Shown here piece by piece: positions 58,231-60,955 of a stretch of 64,000 bases of DNA. The notes beneath the pieces were generated by a model. That model saw only the letters and a list, made by a program, of their open reading frames with translations, was not told where the DNA came from and ran no database searches. This DNA is from Agaricicola taiwanensis. GTDB taxonomy: Bacteria > Pseudomonadota > Alphaproteobacteria > Rhizobiales > Methylopilaceae. The stretch lies in the NCBI RefSeq assembly GCF_014635245.1, contig NZ_BMCP01000002.1, positions 1,116,001 to 1,180,000 of the forward strand, given 5' to 3'. A program made the position numbers and the translations under genes. Each line of letters begins with the position of its first letter. Position 1 is the stretch's first letter.

Positions 58231-58509
58231 TCAGGTCTTGGGAATCCGCTCGATGGCGGGAGGCGGCGCGCCATATTCCGGCGCGGGAACGGATGCCGGC
58301 GGCCGTGAAGGCTGAACGCGCTGCCTGTCTTCGTCCTTGCGGGGATAATAGACCCGCGGAGGCTTGTAGTTGTTGCGGTAGTGGCGCTGAGAGGGGCTGG
58401 AGCGAAAATGCTGGTCGCGATCCCGAAAGCTATCCTGCGCCAGCGCAGGAGACGCCGTCGCGATCATGATGCCGGCAAGAACCCAAAGATGCTTTCTCAT
58501 GAACTTCAT
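58231..58509 (-). CDS. Small secreted basic protein, function unknown
   Basis: A 92-residue protein with a clear signal peptide (KHLWVLAGIMIATASPALA, cut before QDS). The mature part is Arg/Tyr/Pro-rich (RHYRNNYKPPRVYYPRK) and low in hydrophobic residues, so probably unfolded in the periplasm. No family recognised. Two alternative ATGs (58509, 58500) exist; neither has a strong ribosome binding site. Confidence 0.7.
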   Translation of the reverse strand: MKFMRKHLWVLAGIMIATASPALAQDSFRDRDQHFRSSPSQRHYRNNYKPPRVYYPRKDEDRQRVQPSRPPASVPAPEYGAPPPAIERIPKT

Positions 58510-58676
58510 ATGGGGATCGCTGCTCAAAAAGGCCACAGGTTATCGCCTTCGTTATCGACCCGCCGTTTCTTCTGTTGAACCGATATGGGGTCGCTGATAC
58601 CTAGGCGGGGATGAGTCGGGTCAAGTGTTTGAGATTGTGTGTTCATCCACATTCTCATTCTGATTTCCCGGCCAAA

Positions 58677-58751
58677 GCCGGCGTAGCACAGCGGTAGTGC
58701 AGCGGTTTTGTAAACCGAAGGTCGGGAGTTCGATCCTCTCCGCCGGCACCA
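58677..58751 (+). tRNA. tRNA-Thr (anticodon TGT)
   Basis: Acceptor GCCGGCG / CGCCGGC, D arm GCACAGCGGTAGTGC, anticodon loop TTTGTAA with TGT, T loop AGTTCGATCCT, discriminator A and an encoded CCA, followed at once by TTTTT. It is the only plus-strand gene here, between two minus-strand secreted-protein genes. Confidence 0.94.
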
Positions 58752-58824: not shown

Positions 58825-59517
58825 TCAGTTACTGCTGCCACCCTCGTTCTGATCATCGCCGGACCCGCCGACGCTGAGACCATCGGAGCCAAGGCCAACG
58901 CCGACATCTCCGACGTCCGCGCTGATGCCGTCAGAGTCGACGCTCGCACCGATGCCGCCTTCCCCGCCGACACCGGCGTTGATGCCCTCGCTGTTGTTGC
59001 TGCCGGCGCCTTCACCTCCAATATCGGCGTTGATGCCGCCAGTATTTTCGCCAGCCGCGCCGGATCCAAGGCCAACATTGAGGCCACTGGAATTGCTGCT
59101 GGCCGCACCGGAGCTGAGACCAGCGTTGATGCCGCCGGTATTGGAACTCGCGGCCCCGGAGGCGATGCCGGCGTTCACACCACCGCTGTTGGTGGATACG
59201 GCGCTGGAACCGACGCCCACGTTAACGCCGCCAGTGTTGGCACCGGCGCCGCCGGCAACGCCGACATTAAGCCCGCCAGCCGCGGTTCCTGGTGTTCCCG
59301 TTCCGGGAGTGGACGATGTGGCTGAACGGCCCGAGAAGATCGAACTGGTGGTCGGATTGCTCGTCGGGTCGAGCTTGGTGCACCCCTCCTCCGCAATCTG
59401 CGCCAACTGTTGGGACGTCAATTGTCCGGCCGGCACGTCGCACATATCGGCTTTCGCACCAGCAAGGCCAAAGCCCATGCCCACGATCACTGCACTGACT
59501 GATGTTAGGATACGCAT
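58825..59517 (-). CDS. Secreted Gly/Ser/Asn repeat protein, function unknown
   Basis: A 230-residue exported protein. Signal peptide ends near AKA-D (residue 23). Residues 24-50 hold a Cys pair (Cys26, Cys46) around GQLTSQQLAQIAEEG, which may form a disulfide-closed helix. After a Ser/Thr/Pro linker, residues 82-220 are about eight units of 16 residues with pattern G-[LVI]-N-[VA]-G-x-x-S-G-A-A-x-x-N-T-G; later units become acidic and Asp-rich. Such periodic Gly/Asn/hydrophobic repeats often form a beta-solenoid. GGGAGG precedes the ATG. No family recognised. Confidence 0.8.
   Translation of the reverse strand: MRILTSVSAVIVGMGFGLAGAKADMCDVPAGQLTSQQLAQIAEEGCTKLDPTSNPTTSSIFSGRSATSSTPGTGTPGTAAGGLNVGVAGGAGANTGGVNVGVGSSAVSTNSGGVNAGIASGAASSNTGGINAGLSSGAASSNSSGLNVGLGSGAAGENTGGINADIGGEGAGSNNSEGINAGVGGEGGIGASVDSDGISADVGDVGVGLGSDGLSVGGSGDDQNEGGSSN
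58858..59274 (-). repeat. Tandem 48-base repeats inside the secreted repeat protein
   Basis: Eight or so units of 45-57 bases, mostly 48, coding for the 16-residue motif. Adjacent middle units (residues 97-160) are the most alike; the ends have diverged. Hydrophobic positions alternate Val, Ile and Leu, which points to selection on protein shape rather than recent DNA slippage. Confidence 0.8.
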
Positions 59518-59712
59518 ACAAACCTCCCAAAAACTGGTGTTGTGTTCGGGGGATTAACTCTGTCGACATGCGGAAAGTTGCTCAATTTGCAACCGTGGAT
59601 TGGCAATAATCTAGACAGATCTTTAACGAAAACGGCTCATTCTGACCTAACGTTCATCCAGCTTTCAGTCACACTTGTTCACCATGGCCTCCGGCCGCTT
59701 ACTGAGCAGTTC

Positions 59713-60534
59713 ATGATCAATCGCCACAACTCTGAGTACGCCCGTGAGCTGGCGCGCGCCGCAGGTGGCTGCATCCTTTTTGCCTTTCCGCTGCAGATGA
59801 CCATGGAAATGTGGTGGCTGGGGTTCTTCATGGAACGCGAGCGGCTCCTGATCTTCATGATTGTCGGCTTCGCGCTTCTGCTCGGTCTTTCCTATTATTC
59901 CGGATTTGCCCGCGACCAGCCGCTCAAGGACGATATCCTGGATGCGTTCTCGGCCTTTGGCCTTGGCGTGATCATCTCCGCCATCATGTTGCTCATTTTC
60001 AATGTGCTGGCGACGGAGCACTCTCTCAGGGAAATCATCGGCAAGGTCGCGCTGCAGTCCATCCCCGCTGGCATGGGCGCGATCCTGGCACGCAAGCAAC
60101 TTGGTGTCGCCGATGAGGGAGAAGAAAGACAGCGGCGGATCGATAGCTACGCTGGCGAACTTTTTGCCATGACGGGCGGAGCGATCTTTATTGCCTTCAA
60201 CGTCGCCCCAACGGATGAGATCTCGCTTATCAGCCATCTCATGACGCCATGGCACTCGGTGATCCTGTGTTTGATCTCGCTCCTGCTTCTCCATGCCCTG
60301 GTCTATGGCGTCGAACTGGCAGGTCAGGCTCAATGGCCCGAAGGCCATGGCTTTTTGTCCGTCTTCTTTCGCTTCAGCCTTGCCGGCTACGGCGTCGCGG
60401 TCGCCGTCAGCTTGTATATTCTCTGGAGCTTCGGGCGCCTTGACGGAACCGGCTGGAACGAGATCGCCGCCATGCTGGCCGTGCTTGCCTTTCCTGCTTC
60501 CATCGGCGCGGCGACCGCCCGTCTCGTGATCTGA
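59713..60534 (+). CDS. TIGR02587 family integral membrane protein
   Basis: A 273-residue protein with seven to eight hydrophobic segments. The opening RELARAAGGCILFAFPLQMT and the segments ETWWLG-like MEMWWLGFFM, TGGAIFIAFNVAPTDEI and YGVELAGQ fit TIGR02587. It is paired with a TIGR02588 gene 13 bases on, as this family normally is. Function unknown. The ATG at 59713 has only a weak GAG ahead; longer frames lack a better start. Confidence 0.87.
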   Translation: MINRHNSEYARELARAAGGCILFAFPLQMTMEMWWLGFFMERERLLIFMIVGFALLLGLSYYSGFARDQPLKDDILDAFSAFGLGVIISAIMLLIFNVLATEHSLREIIGKVALQSIPAGMGAILARKQLGVADEGEERQRRIDSYAGELFAMTGGAIFIAFNVAPTDEISLISHLMTPWHSVILCLISLLLLHALVYGVELAGQAQWPEGHGFLSVFFRFSLAGYGVAVAVSLYILWSFGRLDGTGWNEIAAMLAVLAFPASIGAATARLVI

Positions 60535-60547
60535 GAGGAGATCGTCG

Positions 60548-60955
60548 GTGTCGGATATGACCGCCAGCGAGCAACAAAAGCCGCCGAAAACACCCGCCTT
60601 GGAATGGATCGCATCGTCCATCGGAGCCATCTTCGCCGTCGGCCTGATCAGCTTTCTCACCTGGGACATCTTCGTGGCGGCCGAGCCGGCCGATGTTTCG
60701 GCACAGCCAGGCGTGATAGAGCAAGCCAGCCAGGGCTATACCCTGGGCATTGTTGTGCAGAACACAGGCGGGCTGACCGCAGCCGAGGTTGAAGTCGAAG
60801 GCAGGGTTACCACCGTCGACGGAACCGAAGAGACCAGCCAGGCGACCTTCGACTATCTGCCGGGAAAATCCGAGCGACGCGGCACATTGATGTTTCAGAC
60901 AGAGCCGGACCCGGCCCAACTGCGGCTCCGGGTGGTCTCCTACCGCGAGCCCTAG
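60548..60955 (+). CDS. TIGR02588 family membrane-anchored protein
   Basis: A 135-residue protein with one transmembrane helix (about 22-42, SSIGAIFAVGLISFLTWDI) and an extracytoplasmic beta-rich domain (YTLGIVVQNTGGLTAAEVEVEG) that looks like a small immunoglobulin-like fold. GTG 60548 follows GAGAGGAG and is the likely start. Always found next to TIGR02587; the two probably form one complex. Confidence 0.86.
   Translation: MSDMTASEQQKPPKTPALEWIASSIGAIFAVGLISFLTWDIFVAAEPADVSAQPGVIEQASQGYTLGIVVQNTGGLTAAEVEVEGRVTTVDGTEETSQATFDYLPGKSERRGTLMFQTEPDPAQLRLRVVSYREP

Follow-up and report, generated by a model that had tools for sequence, protein, structure and literature searches.

A rare family of predicted exported 16-residue repeat proteins, represented in Agaricicola taiwanensis, with a likely beta-solenoid fold and an EcfG-like promoter pattern

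Background

The heads of YadA-type trimeric autotransporters have a 14-residue repeat and an anchor barrel. Coils of 16 residues are described for the solenoids of ice-nucleation proteins in a portion of PMC9418140, and the fungal proteins of this kind are, according to sections of PMC13288671 and PMC12978214, secreted and furnished with terminal disulfide caps; a covalent solenoid cap is reported there as new (PMC13288671, in part). The general stress response of alphaproteobacteria, as presented in an extract of PMC6599016, guards against very different stresses and has many targets listed as hypothetical proteins. The extract gives GGAAC-N17-20-GTT as the Sphingomonas motif for EcfG and lists some EcfG-dependent genes that bear GCAAC, while an excerpt of PMC12148442 has the motif as GGAAC-N16-17-C/GGTT. 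Here we describe a repeat protein gene in a 64,000-nucleotide stretch of the Agaricicola taiwanensis genome (the window), its family, its predicted fold and the pattern that lies upstream of it.

Results

Gene and protein anatomy

The gene occupies positions 58825..59517 of the window on the minus strand, as do all of its parts given below, and encodes a repeat protein of 230 residues (P0001), defined by the ORF call and by homologues. The ORF is not an artefact of GC-rich DNA, because the protein is kept in homologues. A Shine-Dalgarno-like GGGAGG can be read from the sequence 5' of the ATG (59523..59528), and residues 1-23 (59449..59517) form a putative signal peptide, judged by eye and similar in layout in the homologues, which would likely be cut after AKA. 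The protein is thus predicted to be exported. It continues with a head (59380..59442) containing C26-x19-C46, a PA..L motif and a short helix (residues 35-44), recognised from the alignment, the cysteine spacing and a helix in the model, followed by a Pro/Gly/Ser/Thr linker (residues 47-80, 59278..59379) delimited by alignment and by a pLDDT under 50 for residues 52-78. Periodicity, model and register count then define five regular repeats of 15 or 16 residues (residues 81-159, 59041..59277), and the homologue alignment defines conserved terminal coils of the form GGINADIGG..GSNN..GINAGVGG (residues 160-185, 58963..59040). An acidic tail, apparent from sequence and alignment and poorly conserved, completes the protein (residues 186-230, 58828..58962).

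Repeats start at residues 81, 96, 112, 128 and 144, with lengths of 15, 16, 16, 16 and 16, and the terminal coil begins at 160; the last coil, from about residue 177, is degenerate. The protein matches itself at an offset of 16 in 48 of 134 residues, compared to a mean of 21.7 and a maximum of 39 in 5000 shuffles. From C26 onward there are 17 Asp and Glu residues against 2 Lys and Arg. The first-pass annotation had reported this ORF with its repeat unit, which we confirm, and had put the number of repeats at about eight; the 16-residue period stands, and the count comes to seven coils (five regular and two terminal), near to that figure. The acidic, Asp-rich end it noted exists in this protein, but a long acidic tail is not conserved among the relatives.

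A rare family that shares head and repeats

Including the window's gene we found 11 distinct family genes, the ten other homologues sharing both head and repeats. A scan of genome contigs yielded six of these relatives, in Pseudaminobacter, Chelativorans, Pararhodobacter, Chthonobacter and two metagenome genomes, of which the first is labelled Alphaproteobacteria and the second no further than Proteobacteria. Genome searches added L012, L073 and L074, and a viral contig added L021 (L072 is the same gene and was counted once); the genome G884 holds two different family copies, one identical to the L021 gene. Carriage is sparse: at the thresholds applied and counting the window's own genome each time, at least one of 18 genomes of its family, at least three of 397 sampled genomes of its order and at least one of 385 of its class carry the gene, and in the family of the Pseudaminobacter genome it is carried by at least three of 394 genomes, that genome counted. 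P0001 had no match at E<=0.001 in plasmid and phage collections, a second scan of viral contigs with P0004 as query yielded no relative, and two weak matches from a scan of 61 genomes (L002, L003) do not belong to the family.

The spacing of the two head cysteines is 20 in all 11 members, in keeping with the earlier description of a cysteine-containing, disulfide-capable N-terminal cap, and four head residues (Cys, Ala, Leu and Cys) do not vary among the nine members aligned. The 49 exact 16-mers give the column consensus G G I/V/L N A/V G V/L G x G/N A A S G N T/S, in which G6 is occupied in 49, G2 in 48, N15 in 46 and A11 in 45. Each member has 5 to 11 in-register repeat starts; where visible, the first unit often has 15 residues and the last spacing is 17 or 19, and P0006 has three extra in-register starts inside its Gly-rich tail. 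Among the matches listed in a search of the 397 genomes with a profile of the head alone, three were strong, all of them family genes, which argues that head and repeats belong together; seven weak matches (E 0.0009-0.009) we regard as chance. In the closest pair (L006/L007) dN/dS is 0.26 overall, 0.16 in the repeats plus cap and 0.41 in the head plus linker, and so in this single pair the repeats are under purifying selection.

No Pfam model matched at E<=1 in any of nine members searched, and nothing credible was found for these members in Pfam, NCBIfam and PHROGs together (three weak matches, E 0.27, 0.87 and 0.52, in one member each). A sequence profile search of the PDB gave none at E<=10. 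Literature searches met no described family, an absence limited to those searches. The family is real, selected and rare, with no description in the literature searched, in agreement with the first-pass annotation, where no described family was recognised.

Predicted fold

AlphaFold2 was run on P0001 and P0006 as monomers, with models built on 8 sequences (the P0010, L073 and L074 proteins lay outside the alignments) and of middling confidence. For P0001 the mean pLDDT is 60.0, with blocks of 64-80 across residues 81-160 and strands at residues 83-87, 98-102, 114-118, 130-134, 146-150 and 162-166. P0006, which has more repeats, has a mean of 62.8, with blocks of 74-86 across residues 121-250; its head reaches 87-89 and its first coil 55-56, and strands again recur every 15-16 residues.

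Foldseek found no match to either model at E<=0.001 in the PDB or among viral models. In VIA-align the top row for P0001 was the ryegrass ice-binding protein 3ult (Z 11.1, rmsd 7.4, 114 residues aligned, 5% identity), with acyltransferase-type helices near Z 7 (rmsd 8-9) and the bactofilin 6rib at Z 6.5 (rmsd 2.8 over 91), a level at which, as for any Z under 8, the similarity may mean only a common arrangement. P0006, compared with 9 chains, gave enzyme beta-helices at Z 7.0-7.5, a range that the tool calls common. Taking AlphaFold2, Foldseek and VIA-align together, we conclude no more than that a parallel beta-solenoid is likely for the two proteins. A secreted, beta-solenoid-like protein had been proposed at the outset, and both parts of that proposal are supported, the former by the signal peptide judged by eye and the latter by repeat conservation and by the two models, in which the structure prediction called for then returned, with middling confidence, regular strands that recur every 15-16 residues.

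An EcfG-like promoter pattern upstream of the family genes

Upstream of the window's gene lies an EcfG-like promoter candidate, GCAAC-N18-GTT (59556..59581, minus strand), the first base of which is 64 bases upstream of the ATG and which differs from GGAAC by one mismatch. This stress-promoter-like pattern is a new point, absent from the first-pass annotation. Three other members have GGAAC-N17-GTT before their starts (L004 at -60, L005 at -65 and L008 at -56). The strict form GGAAC-N16-18-GTT occurs in 3 of 9 upstream regions, a count equalled in 2 of 2000 dinucleotide shuffle sets, and in 4 of the 11 genes overall, the window's gene not being among these. A relaxed form, GNAAC-N17-18-GTT at -90 to -50, occurs in 7 of 9 regions (in the window at -64), compared to a maximum of 2 of 9 in 3000 shuffle sets, and in 6 of 156 nearby genes, three of the six being family members. 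The first nine regions had already been viewed when GGAAC was relaxed to GNAAC and the positional range was picked, and the pattern was therefore tried on two genes found later, both of which have it: L074 has a perfect GGAAC at -52 and L073 has GCAAC at -55. In total 9 of 11 genes have the relaxed pattern, at distances of 52-83 bases from the start codon, and L009 and L021 are without it. L006 and L007 have upstream sequence in common and do not count as independent cases. The pattern is thus enriched upstream of the family genes.

NepR (PF18557) was detected in all 8 carrier genomes at E<=0.01, above the model cut-off in 7, including the window's genome. Between positions 58500 and 59900 of the window we detected a single terminator-like site, compared to a shuffle average of 1.6, and nothing of the sigma-70 promoter type. 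The upstream pattern and the presence of NepR suggest that the family genes are probably under EcfG general stress control.

Genomic context

Comparison of nine neighbourhoods revealed no conserved neighbour. Only the Pararhodobacter and Chthonobacter loci share a cluster, ABC-transporter-like as judged by eye, which follows the gene in one of them and precedes it in the other. The window's gene is flanked by a tRNA-Thr gene (58677-58751, 73 bases away) and by a divergent pair (59713-60955) comprising a DUF2391/TIGR02587 membrane protein gene and a TIGR02588-like partner that scores below the model cut-off. The divergent DUF2391 gene is present in 14 of 18 genomes of the same family, the window's included. 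Among 14 DUF2391 loci from other genomes of the family, a tRNA-Met adjoins four and a tRNA-Thr adjoins none, so that they do not provide a clean empty site.

A tRNA gene lies within about 1 kb at 4 of the 11 loci (73 bases away in the window, 407 in L023, 852 in L024 and 1004 in L025), and none is that near in L008, L022, L026, L027, L061/L062, L073 or L074, of which L008, L073 and L074 are short stretches. The four nearby tRNAs are all different (Thr, Ser, Met and Val). The copy represented by L021/L061/L062 (an IMG/VR record, G783) adjoins the lysis genes of a tailed prophage, immediately beyond their endolysin end; the prophage also has capsid, protease, tape measure and tail genes; this copy is a possible cargo gene. 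Proximity to tRNA genes and prophage fits lateral movement without proving it.

Small proteins were also seen near some copies. These are an Arg/Tyr/Pro-rich protein with an exported-looking start and no family match in the window (58231-58536), a proline-rich protein, likewise with an exported-looking start and no family match, directly upstream of the Chthonobacter copy (L026, 4633-5070), and a BA14K-like protein adjoining the Pseudaminobacter copy (L022, 7908-8525).

Discussion

We propose that P0001 is the product of a single EcfG-induced gene, a disulfide-capped beta-solenoid stress protein of the envelope or extracellular matrix, a reading to which we give an even chance of being correct. 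Transcription would probably be turned on by EcfG, the alphaproteobacterial general stress sigma factor, and Sec would export the product. Outside the cytoplasm C26 and C46 of the head would probably be oxidised to a disulfide, and beyond a flexible linker the 16-residue repeats would fold as a narrow parallel beta-solenoid closed by the conserved terminal coil. The outcome would be a small, robust rod whose repeats carry few charges and which may line or cross-link the envelope or matrix and act under starvation, drying or osmotic stress. Export and the solenoid fold are predictions within this proposal, and the disulfide, the EcfG control and the protective or structural role of the rod are inferred.

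The stress-promoter-like pattern would also fit a disordered, glycine-rich desiccation protectant resembling hydrophilins, in which the unfolded repeats serve as a water-holding polymer. Low complexity, a glycine content of 23-36% and the presence of 0-2 aromatic residues in each of the 11 members are consistent with such a protein, as is the middling pLDDT of the P0001 model. However, the alternation I/V/L-x-A/V-x-V/L, the Asn fixed in 46 of 49 repeats and the purifying selection in the repeats fit a folded coil, and both AlphaFold2 models have regular strands; we therefore think a disordered protectant unlikely. It is distinctly unlikely that the protein is a subunit of a functional matrix amyloid acting in the manner of curli, for which it has the small size, predicted export, Gly/Asn/Ser-rich composition and single strand-turn per repeat. 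The exporter CsgG was found in none of nine genomes or records searched (the viral record being a fragment) and nine members are without any Pfam match, leaving the curli reading unsupported; Pfam includes models for curlin and for ice-nucleation proteins, and curli repeats have a Gln pattern that is missing in the repeats of this family.

The repeat pattern also looks like that of the YadA head, and as the AlphaFold2 models are of monomers only, this resemblance is the point in favour of a surface adhesin with a trimeric head of that type. We consider such an adhesin very unlikely. Pfam, which includes YadA_head, gives no match at E<=1 in the nine members, no credible profile or BLAST similarity links the family to a true YadA-head protein from a genome of the window's family (L028), and in place of a C-terminal membrane anchor P0001 ends in terminal coils and an acidic tail, so that the YadA-head reading is unsupported.

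An ice-binding or ice-nucleating function appears highly improbable, despite the leading position of 3ult for P0001 (Z 11.1, though with an rmsd of 7.4 over 114 residues), the 16-residue coils shared with ice-nucleation proteins and the secretion and disulfide caps ascribed to the fungal ones in the sections cited above. Compared in its best rotation to the consensus AGYGSTQTAGEESSLT, the family has Thr at the two TxT places in 1 and 3 of 49 repeats and Thr or Ser at both places in none of the 49, and the match to that consensus does not rise above chance, being equalled by 25% of shuffles. The number of in-register starts (5 to 11) is low against the 50 to 100 repeats mentioned in part of PMC12978214, and the VIA-align rows for P0006 are other solenoids. 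With TxT missing and consensus similarity at chance level, the ice-nucleation reading is unsupported. Finally, a calcium-binding RTX-like fibre, as the first-pass annotation had suggested, is scarcely credible in spite of the acidic tail, of the DSDG stretches that some members have and of one GGxGxD each in P0001 and P0004, since the other 9 of 11 members have none, serial GGxGxDxUx nonapeptides are missing in all 11, nine members searched have no Pfam match, the tail acids are unconserved and a signal peptide replaces the type I secretion layout.

Returning to the stress-induced, disulfide-capped solenoid, the family may exemplify an unnamed class of exported solenoids with 16-residue coils and a disulfide cap, extracytoplasmic structural proteins of the alphaproteobacterial general stress response that perhaps self-assemble into protective rods and have spread laterally; we offer this wider classification tentatively and consider it doubtful. 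If the gene is controlled by EcfG, this rare exported solenoid would be a concrete stress effector outside the cytoplasm, and the two-cysteine head is an obvious candidate for capping the solenoid covalently.

Several known systems share part of this architecture. YadA-type trimeric autotransporter heads (PF05658) are likewise extracytoplasmic and built of short Gly/Ala-rich strand-turn repeats, but credible sequence similarity to the family is missing. InaZ-type ice-nucleation proteins, bacterial and fungal, have a Gly-containing coil of 16 residues and a beta-solenoid by prediction, whereas the family lacks TxT, SLT and the Tyr ladder and has few coils. The Lolium perenne protein 3ult is a short-coil beta-roll with the top Z for P0001 (11.1), although at an rmsd of 7.4 and 5% identity, and was outside the 9 chains compared with P0006. 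Bactofilins share a narrow beta-helix (6rib, Z 6.5 with P0001); they are cytoplasmic and have neither a signal peptide nor repeats of this kind. In the case of the EcfG general stress regulon, the window's motif has one mismatch, but the family resembles that regulon in its promoter pattern and spacing and in the presence of NepR in the genomes that carry it.
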